Shown here one piece after another: positions 31,520 through 44,530 of a stretch of DNA of 64,000 nt (position 1 is the stretch's first letter; each line of letters begins with the position of its first letter). The position numbers and the translations under genes are program-made. This stretch comes from Pseudoxanthomonas spadix. GTDB lineage: Bacteria; Pseudomonadota; Gammaproteobacteria; Xanthomonadales; Xanthomonadaceae. The notes beneath the pieces were generated by a model. The model ran no database searches. It had not been told where the DNA came from and saw nothing but the letters and a program-made list of their open reading frames with translations. The stretch is taken from NCBI RefSeq assembly GCF_003703395.1, contig NZ_RDQN01000003.1, forward strand, positions 411,336 through 475,335, written 5' to 3'.

Positions 31520-31713
31520 GGCGGGTCTTGACCCGCCATGCGCGGTTCAACGGCCATGGCGATGTGGGGTTTCGATCGCCATGCCAGGTTCAACGGCCAT
31601 GGCAATGGCGGGTTTCGATCGCCATGCCAGGTTCAACGGCCATGGCAATGGCGGGTTTCGATCGCCATGCAGGTTCAACGGCCATGGCAATGGCGGGTCA
31701 AGACCCGCCCTAC
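31516..31713. repeat. GTAG...CTAC palindrome enclosing four 42-43-bp tandem units
   Basis: The ends are GTAGGGCGGGTCTTGACCCG and its complement at 31692-31713. Between them are four tandem copies of a unit containing GGTTCAACGGCCATGGC and GGGTTTCGATCGCCATGC, with period 43, 43 and 42 bp; the first copy is the most diverged. The left end supplies the TAG stop of the DUF2058 gene and the right end that of sufE. Confidence 0.9.
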
Positions 31714-33751: not shown

Positions 33752-34276
33752 ATGCCCCCCCGAGCTTTCCGTGCCCTCCTGCTTGCCTGCCTGTCGGCCC
33801 CGCTGCCGGCCGCGTTTGCCCAGCAGACGACGGTGGTTCCCATGGAAAACGTGCGCATCGACTACGCCCAGGTGCTCTCGGTCGAGCCGGTCTACCAGGT
33901 CCTGCGTGCCAGCCGCAACGAGCAGCAGTGCGATCGGCCGGCCGATGCGCCCAGCGTCGATGCCGACGCCGACAAGCCCAGGGAAGAAGGCCGCATTGCG
34001 CGCATGGTCGATTCGGTCAAGGGCATCTTCGGCAGCGATGACAAGGATGCGGCCGAGCCCAACCCGCAGGCGGCCACGCCGCCGGCGCCCGGGCAGAACT
34101 GCAGGATGGTCACGGTCGAGCGCGAGTTCCGCCGGCCGATCGCCTACGACGTGGATTACGTCTACAAGGGCAGCAAGTACCGCTCGCGCCTGGCCGAGGA
34201 TCCGGGCAACCGGTTGCGCATCCGGGTGTCGGTGATGCCCTATGCGCCGGGCCAGATCCGCGCGGGCAATCCATAA
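33752..34276 (+). CDS. exported protein of unknown function
   Basis: 174 residues with a signal peptide ending near AFAQ-QTT. A conserved-looking N-terminal VVPMENVRIDYAQVLSVEPVYQ and a C-terminal REFRRPIAYDVDYVYKGSKYRSRL ... GNRLRIRVSV flank a variable acidic/Pro-rich middle. These flanks resemble exported xanthomonad proteins related to the 17-kDa antigen group, but the glycine-zipper helix of that group is absent. It precedes the arginine operon leader and is probably a separate unit. Confidence 0.65.
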   Translation: MPPRAFRALLLACLSAPLPAAFAQQTTVVPMENVRIDYAQVLSVEPVYQVLRASRNEQQCDRPADAPSVDADADKPREEGRIARMVDSVKGIFGSDDKDAAEPNPQAATPPAPGQNCRMVTVEREFRRPIAYDVDYVYKGSKYRSRLAEDPGNRLRIRVSVMPYAPGQIRAGNP

Positions 34277-34339
34277 ACCCCGCGCACCCGGCGCCAAGCC
34301 TTGCGCCGCAACATGCGCACGTGCGAGGATTCGCGCCCG

Positions 34340-34429
34340 ATGAAGACCTCTTCGCACCAGCACGCAAGTTCGGCCCGGATGGCCTCGGGCATGACCTCGC
34401 GTGCCCGTCGACCGGACGCCTGCAACTAG
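34340..34429 (+). CDS. candidate arginine-rich leader peptide of the arg operon
   Basis: A 29-codon frame that no longer ORF explains. GAGGA lies 10 bases before its ATG. Arginine is encoded at codons 13 (CGG), 21 (CGT), 23 (CGT) and 24 (CGA), the last three as R-A-R-R six codons before the stop. Internal in-frame ATGs at codons 14 and 18 are alternative starts. The UAG stop (34427-34429) touches the 5' strand of a hairpin that competes with the terminator downstream. This geometry is that of an attenuation leader peptide. Arg codons are common in GC-rich random frames, so coding is inferred from position and structure. Confidence 0.6.
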   Translation: MKTSSHQHASSARMASGMTSRARRPDACN

Positions 34430-34492
34430 CTGGGTTACCGGAGGTCGTCTTGCATTTACCGGGAAAACCCAGCCAGCAGGCTGGGTTTTTTC
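34429..34492 (+). promoter_or_regulatory. transcription attenuator (mutually exclusive hairpins) of the arg operon
   Basis: Three segments: 1 is GCTGGGTT (34429-34436), 2 is AACCCAGC (34466-34473), 3 is GGCTGGGTT (34479-34487). Segments 1 and 2 pair over 8 bp, with CCGG/CCGG inside, giving an antiterminator. Segments 2 and 3 pair over 9-11 bp around an AGCA loop, followed by TTTTT, giving an intrinsic terminator. Both cannot form together. The acetylornithine carbamoyltransferase start is 73 bp further on. Confidence 0.75.
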
Positions 34493-34564
34493 GTTTTTCC
34501 GTGACAGAAAGGTTTCGCCCGCAACCGCGCATCGCGCGCCGCCCTCGCCGCAAAGGATGATTCG

Positions 34565-35617
34565 ATGGCCCTGAAGCACTTCCTGAACACCCAGGACTGG
34601 TCCCGTGCGGACCTGGACGCCCTGCTCACCCAGGCTGCGCTGTTCAAGCGCAACAAGCTGGGCAACGAGCTGAAAGGCAAGTCGGTGGCGCTGGTGTTCT
34701 TCAACCCGTCCATGCGCACCCGCACCAGTTTCGAGCTGGGGACCTTCCAGCTGGGCGGACACGCGGTGGTGCTGCAGCCGGGCAAGGATGCATGGCCGAT
34801 CGAGTTCGACCTGGGCGCGGTGATGGACGGCGAGGCCGAGGAGCACATCGCCGAGGTGGCGCAGGTGCTGGGCCGATATGCCGATCTGGTCGCGGTGCGT
34901 GCATTCCCCAAGTTCGTGGATTGGGCGATCGACCGCCAGGACCGGGTGCTCAAGAGCTTTGCCAGGTACTGCCCGGTGCCGGTCATCAACATGGAGACCA
35001 TCACCCATCCGTGCCAGGAACTGGCCCACATCATGGCGCTGCAGGAACACTTCGGCAGCAGCGACCTGCGCGGCAAGAAGTACGTGCTGACCTGGACCTA
35101 CCATCCCAAGCCGCTCAACACTGCGGTGGCCAACTCGGCCCTGACCATCGCCACCCGCATGGGCATGGACGTGACCCTGCTGTGCCCGACGCCCGAGTAC
35201 ATCCTTGATGAGCGCTACATGGGCTGGGCGCGGGACAACGTCGATGAAAGCGGCGGCTCGATCCAGGTCAGCCACGACATCGACAGCGCCTACGCCAATG
35301 CCGACGTGGTCTACGCCAAGAGCTGGGGCGCGCTGCCGTATTTCGGCAACTGGGAGCGGGAAAAGCCGATCCGCGAGCAGTACAGGCACTTCATCGTGGA
35401 CCAGGCCAAGATGGCCCTGACCAACAACGGCGTCTTCAGCCACTGCCTGCCGCTGCGCCGCAACGTCAAGGCCACCGATGCGGTGATGGATTCGCCGCAG
35501 TGCATCGCCATCGACGAGGCCGAGAACCGACTGCACGTGCAGAAGGCGATCATGGCGGCCCTGGTCGCGCAGGGCGCGACGACTCGGGGCCCGGGGCCCG
35601 GGACCCGGGACCGGTAA
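34565..35617 (+). CDS. argF': N-acetylornithine carbamoyltransferase
   Basis: 350 residues. This xanthomonad-type enzyme carbamoylates N-acetylornithine to N-acetylcitrulline. Carbamoyl-phosphate contacts are in [15 protein letters not shown] and [10 protein letters not shown], and the acyl-substrate loop HCLPLRRN is present. A Trp/Lys-rich [15 protein letters not shown] segment replaces the usual ornithine-enzyme residues. AAAGGA lies before the ATG. The last residues ([14 protein letters not shown]) are encoded by a heptamer repeat array and look like an added tail. First gene of the arginine-proline operon, behind the attenuator. Confidence 0.95.
35583..35614. repeat. heptamer array at the 3' end of argF'
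   Basis: Units of the type CGGGGCC, CGGGGCC, CGGGACC, CGGGACC lie inside the last codons of the gene, directly before its stop at 35615-35617. Inverted partner at 35703-35729. Confidence 0.85.
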
Positions 35618-35673
35618 AGCCCCATCGCCGTTCTGGCCTTTCGCTTCGCTACTTTCCCTTCTGGAGTTTTCCG

Positions 35674-36945
35674 ATGTCACAGCACCCAGCCAGCCCCTCC
35701 AATCCCGAGTCCCGAGTCCCCAGTCCCGGCTCGAAAGACATCGTGCTGGCTTTTTCCGGCGGCCTGGACACCAGCTTCTGCATTCCCTACCTGCAGGAGC
35801 AGGGCTACGCGGTGCACACCGTGTTTGCCGATACCGGTGGGGTGGATGCCGACGAACGCGATTTCATCGAAAAGCGTGCCGCCGAACTGGGCGCGGCCAG
35901 CCACGTGACCGTCGATGGCGGCCCGGCGATCTGGAACGGCTTCGTCAAGCCGTTCGTGTGGGCCGGGGAGGGCTACCAGGGCCAGTATCCGCTGCTGGTG
36001 TCCGATCGCTACCTGATCGTCGAGGCCGCGCTCAAGCGCGCCGCCGAGCTGGGCACCAAGGCCATCGCGCACGGCTGCACCGGCATGGGCAACGACCAGG
36101 TGCGCTTCGACCTGGCGATCAAGGCGCTGGGCGATTACCAGATCGTCGCCCCGATCCGCGAGATCCAGAAGGAGCACACCCAGACCCGCGCCTACGAGCA
36201 GAAGTATCTGCAAGACCGTGGCTTCGGCGTGCGCGCCAAGCAGCAGGCCTACACCATCAACGAGAACCTGCTGGGCCTGACCATGTCCGGCGGCGAGATC
36301 GACAGGTGGGAAGCGCCGGGCGAAGGCGCGCGCGGCTGGTGCGCGCCGCGCGCGGCCTGGCCAGAAAGCCCACTGTCGGTGACCCTGACCTTCGTCAACG
36401 GCGAGGCGGTGGCGCTGGATGGCGAAAAGCTGGCCGGCGAGAAGCTCCTGGCCAGGCTCAACACGCTGTTTGCGGCCTACGGCGTGGGCCGCGGCGTGTA
36501 CACCGGCGACACCGTGATCGGGCTGAAGGGCCGGATCGTGTTCGAGGCCCCGGGCCTGGTCTCGCTGCTGACCGCGCACCGGGCGCTGGAAGAAGCGGTG
36601 CTGACCAAGCAGCAGAACCGCTTCAAGCCGGAAGTGGCGCGCAAGTGGGTGGAGCTGGTCTACGAGGGCTTCTATCACGACCCGCTCAAGACCGATCTGG
36701 AGGCGTTCCTGCAATCCTCGCAGGCCAAGGTCAACGGCGAGGTGGTGCTGGAAACCCGCGGCGGTCGCGTCGATGCGGTCGCGGTCAAATCGCCGCACAT
36801 CCTCAACGCCAAGGGGGCCACCTACGCGCAGTCGGCCGACTGGGGTGTGGAAGAGGCCGAAGGCTTCATCAAGCTATTTGGCATGAGTTCCACGCTGTAT
36901 GCGCAGGTCAATGGCGCCGATGCAGGGGTGAGGAGTGAGGAGTGA
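35674..36945 (+). CDS. argG: argininosuccinate synthase
   Basis: ATP-dependent ligase of 423 residues; in this pathway it acts on citrulline made by ArgE. The PP-loop is [24 protein letters not shown] and the ATP/citrulline-binding TMSGGEID segment follow. Residues 9-20 ([11 protein letters not shown]) before the conserved [10 protein letters not shown] are encoded by a heptamer repeat array, so the N-terminus is extended compared with the core. CTGGAG precedes the ATG. Second gene of the operon. Confidence 0.95.
35703..35729. repeat. heptamer array inside the 5' end of argG
   Basis: Units CGAGTCC, CGAGTCC, CCAGTCC and a terminal CGG, in the orientation opposite to the array at the end of argF'. 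It encodes the ESRVPSPG part of the ArgG N-terminus. Confidence 0.9.
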
Positions 36946-37100
36946 GCGTGTCGTTGCATGTCGCGTTGGCGGTTCTTCATTCGGTTCGCACTGTGCTTGC
37001 TTTGATTTCCAAACCCATGGCAATCGACACGACCCGCAGGGATATGCGTGTGTAGCCGCCGGCCGCGGCCTGACCCGTTGCACCACTTGAGACCTTGTTG

Positions 37101-38195
37101 ATGACTTGCCTGCTCGAGCACACGCTGAAGCATCTGGAAAAGCTGGTGTCCTTCGACACCCGCAACCCGCCGCGTGCGATCGGCACCGGCGGCATCTTCG
37201 ATTACCTGCGCGCGAACCTGCCCGGCTTCAACGTGGAAGTGATCGACCACGGCGCCGGCGCGGTCAGCCTGTATGCGGTGCGTGGTGCGCCCCGGTACCT
37301 GTTCAACGTGCACCTGGACACGGTGCCCGATTCGCCGCACTGGAGCGCCGATCCGCACGTGTTGCGGCGCGCATCGGACCGCGTGATCGGCCTGGGCGCG
37401 TGCGACATCAAGGGCGCGGCCGCCGCGCTGCTGACTGCGGTCAACGCCGGCCAGGGCGATGCGGCGCTGCTGTTTTCTTCCGACGAGGAAGCCAACGATC
37501 CGCGCTGCATCGCCGCGTTCCTGGCGCGCGGCCTGCCCTACAGGGCGGTGCTGGTGGCCGAGCCGACGATGGGTGAGGCAGTGCTGGCCCATCGCGGGAT
37601 CAGTTCGGTGCTGATGCAGTTCGCCGGCCGCGCCGGGCATGCGGCGGGCGAGCAGGATCCGGCGGCCAGCGCGCTGCACCAGGCCATCGGCTGGGGCTGC
37701 CGGGCGCTGGATCATGTGCAATCGCTCAGCCACGCGCGTTTTGGCGGACTGACCGGGCTGCGCTTCAACATCGGCCGGCTCGAAGGCGGGATCAAGGCCA
37801 ACATGATCGCGCCGCAGGCCGAGCTGCGCTTCGGTTTCCGCCCGTTGCCATCGATGGACGTGGACCAGCTGCTGGAAACCTTCGCAGGATTGGCCGAACC
37901 GGCCGCGGCCGGCTTCACCGAAACCTTCCGCGGGCCGAGTCTGCCGGCCGGCGACATCGCCCGCGCCGAGGACAAGCGCCTGGCTGCGCGCGAGGTGGCC
38001 GATGCGCTGGACCTGCCGATCGGCAACGCGGTGGATTTCTGGACCGAGGCCTCGCTGTTTTCGGCCGCTGGCTACACCGCGCTGGTCTATGGCCCGGGCG
38101 ATATCGCCCAGGCGCACACCGCCGATGAGTTCGTGGCCCTGGCACAGCTGCAGCGCTACGCCGAATCGGTGCATCACATCATCAACGGGCGCTGA
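37101..38195 (+). CDS. argE: N-acetylcitrulline/acetylornithine deacetylase
   Basis: M20 metallopeptidase-family deacetylase of 364 residues. In Xanthomonas the ortholog removes acetate from N-acetylcitrulline. Zinc-ligand segments are [17 protein letters not shown] and FSSDEEAND, with the catalytic Glu in the EE pair. The dimerisation domain contains [19 protein letters not shown]. The start ATG has only a weak ribosome site, and 155 bp of unexplained sequence separates it from argG. The pairing with an acetylornithine carbamoyltransferase supports citrulline-type substrate use. Confidence 0.92.
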
Positions 38196-38259: not shown

Positions 38260-39585
38260 GTGAACATTCCCGCCAGCCACGCCCAGACCCGCCAGACCAT
38301 CGTCCGCCTGCTTTCGAGCATGGCCAGCGCCAAGGAAATCAGCCAGTACCTCAAGCGTTTCTCGCAGCTCGATGCCAAGCGCTTTGCGGTGGTCAAGGTC
38401 GGCGGCGCGGTGCTGCGCGACGAGCTGGACGACCTGACCTCCTCACTGACCTTCCTGCAGGAGGTCGGCCTGACCCCGATCGTGCTGCACGGCGCCGGCC
38501 CGCAGCTGGATGCGGAACTGTCGGCCGCCGGGATCGAGAAGCAGACCATCAATGGTCTGCGCGTGACCTCGCCCAAGGCCCTGGCGATCGTGCGCAAGGT
38601 GTTCCAGGCGTCCAACCTCAAGCTGGTCGAGGCGCTGCAGGCCGCCGGCGCGCGTGCCACCTCGATCACCGGCGGGGTGTTCGAAGCCGACTACCTGGAC
38701 CAGGACACCTATGGCCTGGTCGGTGAGGTCAAGGGCGTCAACCTGGCGCCGATCGAGGCCAGCCTGCAGGCCGGTTCGATCCCGGTGATCACCAGCCTGG
38801 GCGAAACCCCGTCCGGGCAGATCCTCAACATCAACGCCGACTTTGCCGCCAACGAGCTGGTGCGCGAACTGCAGCCGTACAAGATCATCTTCCTCACCGG
38901 CACCGGCGGCCTGCTGGACCAGAACGGCAAGGTGATCGACTCGATCAACCTGTCCACCGAGTACGCGCACCTGATCGCCCAGCCGTGGATCCACGGTGGC
39001 ATGCGGGTCAAGATCGAGCAGATCAAGGACCTGCTGGACAAGCTGCCGATGGAATCCTCGGTGTCCATCACCCGCCCGGCGGACCTAGCCAAGGAGCTGT
39101 TCACCCACAAGGGCTCGGGCACCCTGGTGCGGCGCGGCGAGCGCGTGCTCAAGGCCACCTCCTGGGATGAACTGGACCTGCCCAGGCTCAGGGCGCTGAT
39201 CGAATCCAGCTTTCGCCGCACCCTGGTGCCGGATTACTTCGACAAGACCCCGCTGCTGCGCGCCTACGTCAGCGAGAACTATCGTGCCGCGATCATCCTC
39301 ACCGAGGGCGCGGGCATGGTGTACCTGGACAAGTTCGCGGTGTCCGACGACGCGCAGGGCGAAGGCCTGGGCCGTGCGGTCTGGAACGTGATGCGCGAGC
39401 AGACCCCGCAGCTGTTCTGGCGCTCGCGCCACAACAATCAGGTCAACATTTTCTACTATGCCGAGTCCGACGGCTGCTTCAAGCAGGAGAAGTGGAAGGT
39501 GTTCTGGTATGGCATGGACGACTTCGACCAGATCAAGCGGTGCGTGGCCCACTGCGCCACGCGCGTGCCGACCCTGGAGGGCTGA
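38260..39585 (+). CDS. argB: bifunctional N-acetylglutamate synthase/kinase
   Basis: 441 residues from a GTG start. It carries out the first two steps of arginine synthesis. The amino-acid kinase domain (about 1-285) has [22 protein letters not shown] and the NINADFAAN segment. A GNAT-type synthase domain follows (about 295-441) with [33 protein letters not shown] and [12 protein letters not shown]. Such fusions are known in Xanthomonas and relatives and resemble the vertebrate NAGS. Arginine commonly acts as feedback inhibitor. Its stop directly precedes the argC start. Confidence 0.95.
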
Positions 39586-40542
39586 ATGACTTCCAAGACG
39601 CGCTTTACCGTGGGCATCATCGGCGCACGCGGCCATACCGGCGCCGAGCTGATCAAGCTGATCGCCCACCATCGGCAGCTGGAACTGGCGTTCGTGTCCT
39701 CGCGCGAACTGGCCGGACAGCCGGTCGCCGACCACAGCGATGCCTACGCCGGCCCGCTGCACTATGAAAACCTCGATCCCGATGCGGCCGCGGCCAAGGG
39801 CGCCGACGCGGTGATCCTGGCGCTGCCCAACGGCAAGGCCGAGCCCTACGTCAAGGCGATCGACGCCACCGCGCCACAGACGATCATCGTCGACCTGTCG
39901 GCCGATTACCGCTTCGATCCGGGCTGGTACTACGGCCTGCCCGAGCTGACCCGTGGCAAGTACGCCGGGCAGCGGCGCATCAGCAATCCGGGCTGTTATG
40001 CCACCGCGATGCAGCTGGCGATCGCGCCGCTGCTGGACCAGCTGGCCGGCCCGCCGGTGTGCTTTGGCGTGTCGGGCTATTCCGGCGCCGGCACCACGCC
40101 TTCGGACCGGAACGACCCGGCGCTGCTGCGCGACAACCTGATGCCGTATGCGCTGACCAACCACCTGCACGAACGCGAGGTCTCCGCGCAACTGGGCCTC
40201 CCGGTGGAGTTCATGCCGCACGTGGCGCCGCATTTCCGCGGCATCACCATGACCGTCAACCTGTGGCTGCAGCAGCCGATGACGCGCGAGGACATCAAGG
40301 CGCGCTACCAGGCCCGTTACGCCGGCGAGCCGCTGATCGAGGTGATCGATGAAGCGCCGTGGGTCAGCCGCATCGCCGGCCGCCACGGCGTGCAGATCGG
40401 CGCGTTCGCCACTGCGCCGGGCAACAAGCGCGTGGTCATCGTCTCGACCCTGGACAACCTGCTCAAGGGCGCGGCCACCCAGGCCATGCAGAACCTCAAC
40501 CTGGCCCTGGGCCTGGATGAGCTGACCTCCATTGCGCATTGA
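39586..40542 (+). CDS. argC: N-acetyl-gamma-glutamyl-phosphate reductase
   Basis: NADPH-dependent reductase of 318 residues. The N-terminal dinucleotide site is [15 protein letters not shown]. The active cysteine is in [14 protein letters not shown] and the catalytic His in [10 protein letters not shown]. The gene begins immediately after the argB stop with no gap, so the two are coupled. A 66-bp palindrome follows before argH. Confidence 0.95.
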
Positions 40543-40669: not shown

Positions 40670-41968
40670 ATGACCAACCTGCTCTGGCAAAAGCCCGGCG
40701 TTGCAGTGGACGCGAAGATCCAGGCCTTCCTGGCCGGTGACGACGTGATCCTGGACCGCGAGTTCTTCCTCTACGACATCGCCGCCAGCACCGCCCATGC
40801 CGAGGGCCTGCAGCACATCGGCATCCTCTCGCCGGAAGAACTGGATGGGCTCAAGCGCGAACTGGCCATACTGGCCGACGATTTCCGCAGCGGTGCGTTC
40901 GTGCTGGATGAGCAGTACGAAGACTGCCATTCGGCCATCGAGGCGCGCCTGACCGAACGCCTGGGCGATGCCGGTCGCAAGATCCACACCGGGCGCAGCC
41001 GCAACGACCAGATCCTGGTGGCCACCCGTCTGTGGCTGAAGGACAAGCTGCAGGCCGTGGCCCAGCTGAGCCGCGAGGTCGCCAAAGTGGCGCTGGACCG
41101 CGCGGAGGCGGAAAAGGACCTGCCGATTCCCGGCTACACCCATATCCAGCGCGCAGTGGTGTCCTCGGCGGGCATGTGGTGGGCCGGCTGGGCCGAAGGC
41201 TTCATCGACAACGCGGTGCGCGCGGCCGATACCTTGCGGCTGGTGGACTGCAATCCGCTGGGGACCGCGGCCGGCTACGGCGTCAACCTGGCACTGGACC
41301 GTGCGCACACCACGGCCGCGCTGGGCTTTGCGCGGATGCAGGTCTCACCGATCTACGCCCAGCTTTCGCGCGGCAAGTTCGAACTGGCCGCACTGGAAGC
41401 CCTCGGCGCGGCCACCCTGGACCTGCGCCGCATCGCCTGGGACCTGTCGCTGTTCACCAGCGCCGAGTACGGCTTCGTGGCGCTGCCGGCGCAGTACACC
41501 ACCGGCAGTTCGATCATGCCCAACAAGCGCAACCCGGACGTGATCGAGCTGATGCGCGCCACCCACGCCAGCGTGGCCGCCGCGCGCACCGGGATCGAAC
41601 AGCTGCTGTCGCTGCCCTCGGGCTATCACCGGGACCTGCAGGGCAGCAAGGGCGCGATCGTGCATGGCTTCGGCCGCGGCCTGGCGGCGCTGGAACTGCT
41701 GCCGGCGCTGCTGGCCAACCTGGAGTGGCGGCCCGACAAGCTGCGCGCGGCGATCGATTCGGGCATGTATGCAACGGACGTGGCGGTTGAGGCAGCCATT
41801 GCGGGCGTGCCGTTTCGCGAGGCGTACCGGGCCGCTGCGGCGGCTTCGGACACTGCCGGGCAGGGGCGTACGCCGGAAGCCAGCCTGGCGGCGCGGGTGT
41901 CGCCGGGGGCGGCAGCGGACTTGAAGCTGGAGGTGTTGCTGGCGCGGTGGGAGGGGTTGGAAGGGTGA
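40670..41968 (+). CDS. argH: argininosuccinate lyase
   Basis: Last step of arginine synthesis, 432 residues. The superfamily signature [12 protein letters not shown] is intact, along with [15 protein letters not shown] and the active-site YTHIQRAV. It belongs to the same lyase superfamily as purB and fumC in this window. AGGAG lies 8 bp before the ATG. Shorter than the E. coli enzyme at its C-terminus by roughly 25 residues. Confidence 0.95.
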
Positions 41969-42080: not shown

Positions 42081-43271
42081 ATGAACGACACCGCTTCCCT
42101 GGTTGCCACGCCTTTCACCCCGCAGCCGATCCCGACCTGGCGGCGGGCGGTGCTCAAGGTGGGCAGCAGTCTGCTGGCCGCCGATGGCGTGGGCCTGTCG
42201 CCGCGTTTCGCGCTGGGGTTGGCGCAGTTCGTCTCGGCGCACGTGCAGGCCGGGCGCGAAGTGGTGATCGTGTCTTCCGGCGCGGTCGCGGCCGGGCGGG
42301 CGATCGTGCCCAGGGTGGCCGACGCGGGCGGGGCGATCGCCGCGCGCCAGGCGCTGGCCGCGTTGGGTCAGGCGCAGCTGATCGCGCTGTGGCAGCGTTT
42401 TTTCGAACGTCCGGTCGCCCAGGTGCTGCTGACCCACGACGACCTGCGCAATCGCCGCCGCTACCTCAATGCGCGCGCCACGCTGCTGGAATTGCTGCGA
42501 TTGGGCACCCTGCCGGTGATCAACGAGAACGACACCGTCTCGGTGGACGAGCTCAAGCTGGGCGACAACGACAACCTGGCGGCCATCGTCGCCGCGCTGG
42601 TCGATGCCGATGCCCTGTTCATCGCCACCGACATCGATGGGCTGTACACCGCCGATCCGCGCAGCAACCCGGCCGCGCGCCCGCTGGATGAAGTGCAGCT
42701 GCTGACGCCGGAGGTGTTGGCCATGGCCGGCGGCAGCGGCAGCAGTGTCGGCACCGGCGGCATGCGCACCAAGCTGGAGGCCGCCGCCAAGGCCGGTGCG
42801 GCCGGCGTGGAGACCTACCTGTTCAACGGCCGCAATGCCGAGGTCGTGCGCGGCCTGGCGCAGGACCGACTGAGCGGCACGCGCATCCATGCCGCGCAGA
42901 CCCGCATCGCCGCGCGCAAGGGCTGGCTGCGGCACGCGCCGGTCGAACCGGGCGCGATCCTGATCGATGCCGGCGCCGCCGCGGCGCTGGTCGAAAAGGG
43001 CGCATCGCTGCTGCCCGGTGGCGTGACCGGCGCCGAAGGCGATTTCCGCCGCGGCGACATGGTGCTGGTGCGCACCGGCGACGCCGACGGTCAGCGCCCG
43101 CTGGCGCGCGGCATCGCCCAGTATTCGGCGGCCGACATCCGCCGCATCGCCCGCCGCCATTCGCGTGACATCGAGGCCGTGCTGGGCTACAGCTATGGTG
43201 AGAACGTGATCCACCGCGACGACCTGGTGCTGTTGGCCAGCGCCGCTCCACTTCCGAGGACTCCACGATGA
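42081..43271 (+). CDS. proB: glutamate 5-kinase
   Basis: First enzyme of proline synthesis, 396 residues. Amino-acid kinase domain (about 20-275) with [46 protein letters not shown] and [13 protein letters not shown]-terminal PUA domain (about 290-375) contains [25 protein letters not shown], as in most proteobacterial enzymes. Its last codons overlap the proA start (ATGA). Placing proBA after argH in one run links proline and arginine synthesis, both starting from glutamate. Confidence 0.95.
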
Positions 43272-44530
43272 GCGACATCAAGACCCAGGCGCTGGCCTGC
43301 CGCGAAGCCTCGCTGACCCTGGCCCAGCTGTCCTCGGCCGACAAGGCCGCGCTGTTGGAGGCGATGGCCTCGGCCCTGGAAACCCAACAGGACGCGATCC
43401 TGTCGGCCAACGAACAGGACCTGCAGGCCGCGCGCGAAAAAGACATCGGCAGCGCCATGCTCGACCGGCTCATGCTCAATCCCGAACGCATCGCCGGCAT
43501 CGCCGCGGCCTTGCGCGAGGTGGCCGCCTTGCCCGATCCGGTCGGCCAGGTCACCCGCAGCGACACCCGTCCCAACGGCATCCAGGTCAGCAAGGTGCGG
43601 GTGCCGCTGGGCGTGATTGCGATGATCTACGAGGCCCGGCCCAACGTGACCGCCGATGCGGCAGCGCTGTGCATCAAGGCCGGCAACGGCGTGATCCTGC
43701 GCGGTGGCTCGGAGGCGATCCATTCCAACACCGCCATTGCGCAGGCCCTGCAAGGCGCGCTGCGCCAGGCCGCAGTCCCCGAAGCCGCATTGACCCTGGT
43801 CACCGACCTGCGCCGGCAGACCATGCTCGAGCTGCTGCAACTGAGCGACATCGTCGACCTGGCCATCCCGCGCGGCGGCGAAGGCCTGATCCGCTTCGTC
43901 GCCGAGCACGCGCGGGTGCCGGTGATCAAGCATTACAAGGGCGTGTGCCACCTGTTCGTCGATGCCAGCGCCGATGTCGATCTGGCGCTCAAGCTGCTGG
44001 TCGATGGCAAGGTCTCGCGCCCGAGCGCCTGCAATTCATTAGAAACGCTGCTGGTGCACCAGGACATCGCGCCGGTGTTCCTGCCGCTGGCGGCCAGGGC
44101 GCTGCTGGCGCGTGGCGTTGAACTGCGCGGCGATGAGGCCACCCGCAGGCTGGTGGCTGAGGCCAAGCCCGCCTCGGAGGAGGACTACGCCGCCGAATTC
44201 CTGGACCTGATCCTGGCCGTGCGCGTGGTCCCGGACCTGGCCGAGGCGATCGCCCACATCCGCCATTACGGCTCGGACCACACCGAGGTGATCGCCACCG
44301 CCGATGAAGCCAACGCCACCGCCTTCGTCGCGGCACTGCGCGCGGCGGTGGTGATGGTCAACGCGTCCTCGCGGTTCTCCGACGGCGGCGAGCTCGGCCT
44401 GGGCGCGGAGATCGGCATTTCCACCACGCGCCTGCATTCCTACGGGCCGATGGGCCTGGAAGCGCTCACCGTCGAGCGCTTCGTCGTCCACGGACAGGGC
44501 CAGACCCGGGTGCCGATCCGCGTGGACTGA
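43268..44530 (+). CDS. proA: gamma-glutamyl phosphate reductase
   Basis: NADPH-dependent reductase of 420 residues in the aldehyde-dehydrogenase superfamily, giving glutamate-5-semialdehyde. [26 protein letters not shown] is the family signature. The catalytic cysteine is in [24 protein letters not shown] and [18 protein letters not shown] are also diagnostic. Translation is coupled to proB through ATGA. Last gene of the operon. Confidence 0.96.

Follow-up and report, generated by a model that had tools for sequence, protein, structure and literature searches.

Transcription attenuators that work through a leader peptide are known from the trp, his, thr, leu, ilv and phe operons, and two further short peptides, SpeFL and the fungal arginine attenuator peptide, stall with ornithine and with arginine, respectively. 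The subject of this analysis is a leader upstream of argF', the gene for N-acetylornithine carbamoyltransferase, which heads an arginine-proline gene cluster in Pseudoxanthomonas spadix. It lies within a stretch of 64,000 nucleotides (NCBI RefSeq assembly GCF_003703395.1, contig NZ_RDQN01000003.1, positions 411,336 to 475,335 of the forward strand), called the window throughout. The conserved leader and the mutually exclusive helices predicted for its RNA very likely form an arginine-responsive transcription attenuator of this cluster.

In its parts the locus resembles the trp- and his-type attenuators, with a leader frame carrying codons for the end product, predicted protector, antiterminator and terminator helices, and a biosynthetic operon downstream. 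Unlike them, it would respond to arginine, a signal for which the literature searched gave no printed case, through three control codons that belong to one codon box; its peptide is conserved upstream of the putative stall; and in the majority of the genera sampled from the window's family, its RNA seems to begin practically at the AUG. With SpeFL, the fungal peptide and TnaC, as these are described, it shares a short, conserved upstream peptide that would stall in amino acid control, whereas here the putative stall comes before the stop codon, within the frame, and any ligand is putative. In Pseudomonas aeruginosa, the source of the closest case in the literature searched, a leader peptide is made upstream of carAB, and attenuation has been proposed together with a stem-loop that serves pyrimidine control (PMC4997734). 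This is likewise a leader peptide before a gene of the arginine/pyrimidine route, but the account of it in that source has the arginine response persisting without the stem-loop. ArgR, the repressor of the same pathway in other gammaproteobacteria, is by contrast a DNA-binding protein (PMC5343134), and in this order it was detected in one other family alone. The RNA itself is that of Rfam family RF02242, sRNA-Xoo5, whose model the window matches end to end and which was described as a small RNA (sRNA) in PMC3039613. The open-access literature yielded no arginine attenuator for this clade and no paper with RF02242 or with the peptide motif MTSRARR; arginine is absent from the main text of the attenuator survey PMC2965389, whose supplementary tables could hold a bare argF' prediction.

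The leader peptide and its distribution

The features of the window on which the argument turns are as follows:

34301-34330, + strand: predicted promoter, with a -35 element TTGCGC at 34301-34306, an 18-base spacer and a -10 element GAGGAT at 34325-34330
34338-34455, + strand: match to RF02242 "Xoo5", with 34338 aligned to model position 1
34340-34429, + strand: leader peptide frame of 29 codons plus TAG, MKTSSHQHASSARMASGMTSRARRPDACN, with ATG at 34340 and TAG at 34427-34429, starting 2 bases past the putative RNA 5' end
34367-34411, + strand: conserved peptide core SSARMASGMTSRARR (codon table, entropies by position, and ratio of nonsynonymous to synonymous differences, pN/pS)
34400-34411, + strand: control codons CGT-GCC-CGT-CGA (Arg-Ala-Arg-Arg)
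34406-34423, + strand: protector arm, overlapping the last Arg and the Pro codons; when free of a ribosome it would, by local folds, pair with segment 1 and the bases following it
34429-34436, + strand: segment 1 GCTGGGTT, 5' half of the predicted antiterminator
34460-34474, + strand: segment 2, containing AACCCAGC at 34466-34473, a partner of either segment 1 or segment 3
34479-34493, + strand: segment 3, terminator 3' arm, with GGCTGGGTT at 34479-34487 and a T-run at 34486-34491
34565-35617, + strand: argF' (N-acetylornithine carbamoyltransferase; NF003384, 630 bits), first downstream gene

A first-pass annotation, made from the letters of the window, had proposed an arginine-sensing attenuator at this place, and the leader, segments and terminator that it observed are real and beyond chance. 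The frame is built as it described, with R-A-R-R (Arg codons at 34400-34402, 34406-34408 and 34409-34411) and the last arginine six codons before the UAG, which touches segment 1 by sharing position 34429; segments 2 and 3 also lie where they had been placed. What it missed is that the RNA is the Rfam "sRNA" Xoo5 and that the peptide itself is conserved.

Codons were tabulated in 150 genomes from 56 genera, with loci kept by a motif that demands R-x-R-R, M0 and S2 (numbered from the methionine of MTSRARR); R-A-R-R is present in all 150 genomes kept in this way. The core consensus is (T/S)-(S/A)-A-x-M-A-(A/S)-G-M-T-S-R-A-R-R, in which A-6, A-3, M0, T1, S2, R3, A4, R5 and R6 stand at about 100% by genus weight, and the non-arginine residues A-6, A-3, G-1, M0, T1, S2 and A4 are held at 97 to 100% while most of their third bases vary. 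The residue after the last arginine is proline (87% by genus weight), beyond which conservation is gone. With one genome per genus (n = 56; 54 for argF'), mean entropy at the first, second and third codon positions is 0.21, 0.10 and 0.81 bits in the core (-6 to +6), compared with 1.60, 1.50 and 1.36 bits in the N-terminal flank. The pN/pS is 0.33 for residues -8 to +6 and 0.53 for -8 to -1 alone, compared with 0.37 for argF'; the N-terminal and C-terminal flanks have values of 1.04 and 1.18, and the core gives 1.4 and 2.7 when it is read in the other frames. Because of the three-base periodicity of conservation and this frame-shift control, the leader is, by comparison of sequences, a frame under coding selection that is conserved as a peptide and not as RNA alone.

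The arginine codons of the core are drawn from a narrow set. All 168 genus-representative codons at the three core Arg positions are CGU, CGC or CGA, which would be read by one inosine tRNA; CGG, AGG and AGA, which make up 65 of the 262 Arg codons in nine genes of the window, are found nowhere among them. An arginine outside the core, at -5, is encoded by CGG in 10 of 40 cases, and the full 150-genome set contains one CGG at R6. TCG at S2 and CGA at R6 are nearly fixed at the codon level too. The last Arg codon is CGA in 145 of the 150 genomes, though CGA accounts for only 8 of the 262 Arg codons in the nine genes, perhaps because it belongs to the protector arm. Between the core and the stop codon stand 1 to 9 residues.

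At 232 loci out of the 236 that were fetched, an MTSRARR-type core lies in frame 5' of argF'; many of the 236 were found through RF02242 or the MTSRARR motif itself, and some come from the same genome twice. The other four are L050, with one residue changed, and three loci without ArgF'. In a sample chosen by ArgF' only (80 loci, the best 80 of 583 and hence close relatives, which partly repeat other loci and were left out of the genus tables), 79 have the motif, and L050, the 80th, reads GITSRARRP with RARR kept. At the DNA level, the MTSRARR pattern occurs in 264 of 398 genomes of the order, and a reversed-pattern control in 2 of 398. By our own count these comprise 128 of 129 genomes in the window's family, all 124 in family f12 (perhaps Rhodanobacteraceae), 3 of 3 in f2 and 8 of 10 in f3, with a single one among the 132 genomes of the remaining eight families. 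Across the class the pattern was found in 5 of 369 genomes, all within the order. RF02242 matches 163 of the 398 genomes of the order, 85 of them above the gathering cut-off, and the window genome has a single match.

Of 200 genomes examined from the order, 8 gave an ArgR (PF01316) match, and these 8 belong without exception to family f11. The attenuator may be a replacement for ArgR.

A few records of the collection deserve separate mention. MTSRARR is present without ArgF' in L208 and L209, and one genome (G136, locus L161) has a second, weak RF02242 match with no adjoining ArgF'. A record titled Bacillus subtilis SK7B5 (L058) carries a Stenotrophomonas-like argF' and leader, and its assembly is probably mislabelled or contaminated. 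In Xanthomonas sacchari R1 (L322, NZ_CP010410.1), the leader, argF' and argG are found on a 508-kb "plasmid" record, with no gene annotated at the leader; either the pathway lies on a large replicon or the record is a piece of the chromosome.

Predicted terminator, antiterminator and transcript start

An intrinsic terminator was found before argF' in 147 of the 150 genomes, and the antiterminator, covariation and fold figures refer to these 147 (the three-strand covariation count additionally leaves out L236). In the window, segments 2 and 3 can pair as the T-run terminator of the first-pass annotation (34460-34493, 15 pairs). This is the single terminator-like site within 33900-34900; because shuffles average 0.5 such sites, the bare count is uninformative and weight is put on the comparative evidence. 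The claimed pairing of segments 1 and 2 is also predicted, at -18.2 kcal/mol in the window, a value that none of 100 shuffles equaled. Expressed as z against dinucleotide shuffles, the genus mean of the segment 1:2 energy is negative in 55 of 55 genera, with a mean of -2.85 and values below -1.5 in 48, and in 123 of 147 genomes no more than 5 of 100 shuffles are as good. The annotation had also named a possible pause hairpin between CGACC (34409-34413) and GGTCG (34443-34447); the two sequences and their positions are as claimed.

The start of segment 1 lies roughly 20 bases past the last Arg codon (genus medians of 15 to 21.5), whereas the stop codon falls anywhere from +6 to +30. Because this distance is held and the stop moves, the ruler appears to be the spacing between the last arginine and segment 1, which is what a stall at the Arg codons would call for. 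With one genome per genus (55 genera) and segment 1 taken at a fixed offset of +21 from the last Arg codon, 87% of cells are paired, compared with 20 to 48% at eight slid offsets, and the helix shows 21 two-sided changes, compared with a mean of 5.9 and a maximum of 16 in 500 shuffles. The key antiterminator pair is C-G in 23 genera, T-A in 20, T-G in 2 and unpaired in 10, and in several genera unpaired at this position segment 1 sits a few bases nearer. The third strand covaries: with pairing chosen by energy, the combination is T/A/T in 23 genera, C/G/C in 28 and the wobble step T/G/C in 3. In a base scan around the covarying pair, segment 1 was unreadable in 13 of the 232 loci. Since shuffles ignore relatedness, more reliance is placed on the slid control and on changes that recur in both large families. 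An antiterminator helix that would exclude the terminator, with compensatory change, is predicted from these comparisons, weakly so in f2 and f3.

Conservation of frame and pairing in relatives had been named beforehand as the check on the attenuator reading, and the frame, the Arg codons, segments 1, 2 and 3 and their order are held in 56 genera of four families, with compensatory changes. This conservation, the compensatory changes and the scarcity of ArgR in the order all support the proposal of an arginine attenuator.

Folding in silico, with a ribosome reach of 12 bases (the textbook value) and segment 1 counted as masked if no more than 2 bases were exposed, gives both predicted states. 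A ribosome placed on the last Arg codon yields the antiterminator in 144 of 147 genomes, and a ribosome at the stop codon masks segment 1 in 146. A protector helix that hides segment 1 by pairing it with upstream sequence appears in local folds of 50 of 55 genera, and it competes with the antiterminator in longer folds.

The RF02242 match at 34338-34455 scores 65.9 bits, compared with a gathering score of 50. Xoo5 was obtained from a cDNA library of the rice pathogen and published as an sRNA of 124 nucleotides (nt; Table 2), with its 5' end determined by rapid amplification of cDNA ends (RACE) and with two bands, near 130 and 100 nt, on Northern blots, of which the short one alone persists in later growth (PMC3039613); the words arginine, leader, argF and ornithine are absent from the main text of that paper. 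Because the RF02242 model and the published RNA are both 124 long, model position 1 should correspond to the RACE end, which would place the RNA 5' end in the window at 34338, two bases before the ATG. The sequence GAGGA at 34325-34329, which the first-pass annotation took for a good ribosome site, lies upstream of this position, so that assignment is probably wrong, and GAGGA(T) reads better as the -10 element of a promoter (TTGCGC-N18-GAGGAT). Among 26 genera in the window's family, 20 have the arrangement TTGC-N18..20-GANNAT at 7 to 10 bases 5' of the ATG (0.01 expected from shuffles), and together with the RACE end this suggests that the leader mRNA is nearly leaderless in most sampled genera of this family. 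In f12, 20 genera out of 24 have a similar promoter-like pair of TTGC and then NA[TC]NAT; inspection by eye places it further upstream and shows a CCGGAA-like ribosome site ahead of many leader ATGs. No promoter came out of a strict sigma-70 scan of 33900-34900, and generic-consensus scores hardly differ between the region upstream of the leader (mean of 6.4) and the interval from terminator to argF' (6.0); because such scores barely discriminate, the promoter claim rests on the TTGC-GANNAT arrangement. The terminator is separated from argF' by an estimated 40 bases or fewer in 13 of 54 genera, which leaves so little room that a separate argF' promoter is unlikely there.

A number of observations weigh against the attenuator. 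At 124 nt, with bands of about 130 and 100 nt, the published Xoo5 is shorter than the terminated leader of 157 to 165 nt predicted in 15 Xanthomonas-type genomes, so its mapped 3' end is not at the terminator; trimming, pausing or cloning bias could account for the gap. The conserved promoter arrangement is absent from the six f2 and f3 genera (0 of 6), where the f12-type pattern was not found either. The terminator was not found in L200, L203 and L204. Five genera (g44, g90, g57, g34 and g33, four of them in f2 or f3) give a weak antiterminator signal, with z from -0.14 to -0.89, and L197 alone has a z of +0.6, with 76 of 100 shuffles as good. In the fixed-offset helix, pair types are no more numerous than in shuffles, of which 254 of 500 have at least as many, and the base that segment 1 contributes to the key pair is G in 10 of 55 genera; L099, L107 and L171 have a C-A mismatch in place of the covarying pair. 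Segments 1 and 2 do not pair in the stalled-state folds of L150, L163 and L197. In L202 (genus g49), whose leader ends in MTSRARRP* with the stop codon 6 bases past the start of the last Arg codon, segment 1 is unmasked at the stop, since a ribosome so near the last arginine would leave it uncovered. Folds of the full leader have no clear default: segment 1 pairs with upstream sequence in 59 genomes out of 147 and with segment 2 in 86. Finally, the pN/pS of 0.00 for MTSRARR is partly an artefact of keeping loci by that motif.

How the leader may act, and other explanations

The mechanism that best fits these features would begin with RNA polymerase starting 2 bases 5' of the leader AUG and a ribosome loading immediately. 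When charged arginine tRNA is scarce, the ribosome would stall at the CGN Arg codons and cover the protector arm, leaving segment 1, some 20 bases on, free to pair with segment 2, and transcription would proceed. When arginine is ample, the ribosome would reach the stop codon and cover segment 1, and the terminator of segments 2 and 3 would form. The conserved nascent peptide probably predisposes the ribosome to pause at the last arginine, and the short terminated RNA, perhaps trimmed, may be what was catalogued as sRNA Xoo5.

A fuller version is offered tentatively, at somewhat less than even odds. It holds that two sensors work jointly, namely the one-box Arg codons (CGU, CGC and CGA, with the rare CGA last) and the sequence SAxMA(A/S)GMTSRARR selected for pausing; that they took over from ArgR in an ancestor of the Xanthomonas group and the peptide stayed nearly unchanged in four families; and that Xoo5 is the terminated by-product. 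Hungry codons and nascent chain acting together are the favoured combination.

Other leaders of the family offer a limited comparison. As controls for the usual conservation of leaders, the Rfam families His_leader and Thr_leader matched 0 and 20, respectively, of 60 genomes of the family at an E value of 0.001, none above the cut-off, and the region upstream of hisG showed a His run in 1 of 30 loci, which was unconvincing as an attenuator. Upstream of ilvC, a branched-chain leader with a T-run was found in 5 of 25 loci. These five, from other genomes of the family (L296, L297, L303, L304 and L309), are likely a second attenuator of similar build, in which a T-run terminator comes after a leader ending in ...LVLVLITSPTGAGRTG* and the last codons hold a GTGCGGG-like segment able to pair with the terminator arm. 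In four of these sequences the conserved codons mostly retain their third bases, which makes the ilvC leaders a small contrast and not a proof.

The alternative that survives best is a ligand-sensing arrest peptide, in which free arginine or a pathway metabolite and the nascent GMTSRARR in the exit tunnel would together stall the ribosome, with the arginines acting as residues and not as tRNA sensors. The nascent chain is conserved up to the putative stall site and conservation falls after the last arginine, as this explanation would have it, and the near-invariance of the non-arginine residues over variable third bases also agrees with it (though M0 and S2 are fixed by the motif through which loci were selected). 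The ilvC contrast points the same way, since in the four sequences compared there, third bases are mostly retained too at conserved residues outside the control codons, which looks like conservation as RNA. Arrest at the last arginine, however, would free segment 1, and a stall at high arginine would then turn expression on, opposite to what feedback requires. Stalling at the stop codon instead sits badly with the variable distance from core to stop, and the restriction to CGU, CGC and CGA points to tRNA sensing, which leaves the ligand-sensing peptide unlikely.

Xoo5 could also be a trans-acting sRNA with its own promoter and terminator that lies near argF' incidentally, in keeping with its publication as an sRNA with a 5' RACE end and two Northern bands (PMC3039613). 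The position of the leader beside argF' in nearly all fetched loci and the coding-type conservation argue against this, as do the genera in which argF' follows within about 40 bases of the terminator and the end of the mapped RNA short of that terminator; the explanation is very improbable, and Xoo5 may act in trans as a by-product. Least probable of all is a small conserved protein gene with an ordinary terminator and no regulation of argF', which would suit the strong conservation of the core but not the flanks, with pN/pS near or above 1, nor a terminator arm that covaries with a segment outside the terminator whose distance to the last arginine is held.

The gene cluster and the meaning of the proposed attenuator

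Downstream of argF' the cluster continues with genes assigned by NCBIfam equivalog models:

35671-36945, + strand: argG
37095-38195, + strand: acetylornithine deacetylase type gene (argE)
38302-39585, + strand: acetylglutamate kinase type gene (argB)
39586-40542, + strand: argC
40670-41968, + strand: argH
42081-43271, + strand: proB
43268-44530, + strand: proA

Judging from spacing and strand, argF'-argG-argE-argB-argC-argH-proB-proA would form one transcript. Between the terminator and argF' (34494-34564), a GAAAGTTTCAACCGCAA-like stretch, with the form AGAAAGGTTTCGCCCGCAACC in the window, stands at the same place in several genera (Xanthomonas, Stenotrophomonas and Pseudoxanthomonas loci). 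Directly 5' of the leader and on the same strand, a frame at 33752-34276 encodes a hypothetical protein of 174 amino acids with a weak, sub-threshold NCBIfam match. Farther upstream, at 31534-31698, there is a tandem array of 3.9 copies of a 43-base unit with 95% matches.

Two aspects of the leader were unexpected: the conservation of its peptide residue by residue up to the last arginine, and the apparent start of its RNA close to the AUG in most of the genera sampled from the window's family. If the attenuator reading is true, the control of arginine synthesis, and perhaps of proline synthesis, would be explained for a large group of plant, soil and opportunistic bacteria in which ArgR was not detected, arginine would join the amino acids sensed by bacterial leader peptides, and an orphan Rfam family would gain a function. 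The leader would also provide a natural test of whether selection can shape attenuator peptides as arrest sequences and not merely as runs of control codons, with 263 sampled genomes of four families carrying the pattern and with flanks that are free in 56 genera.
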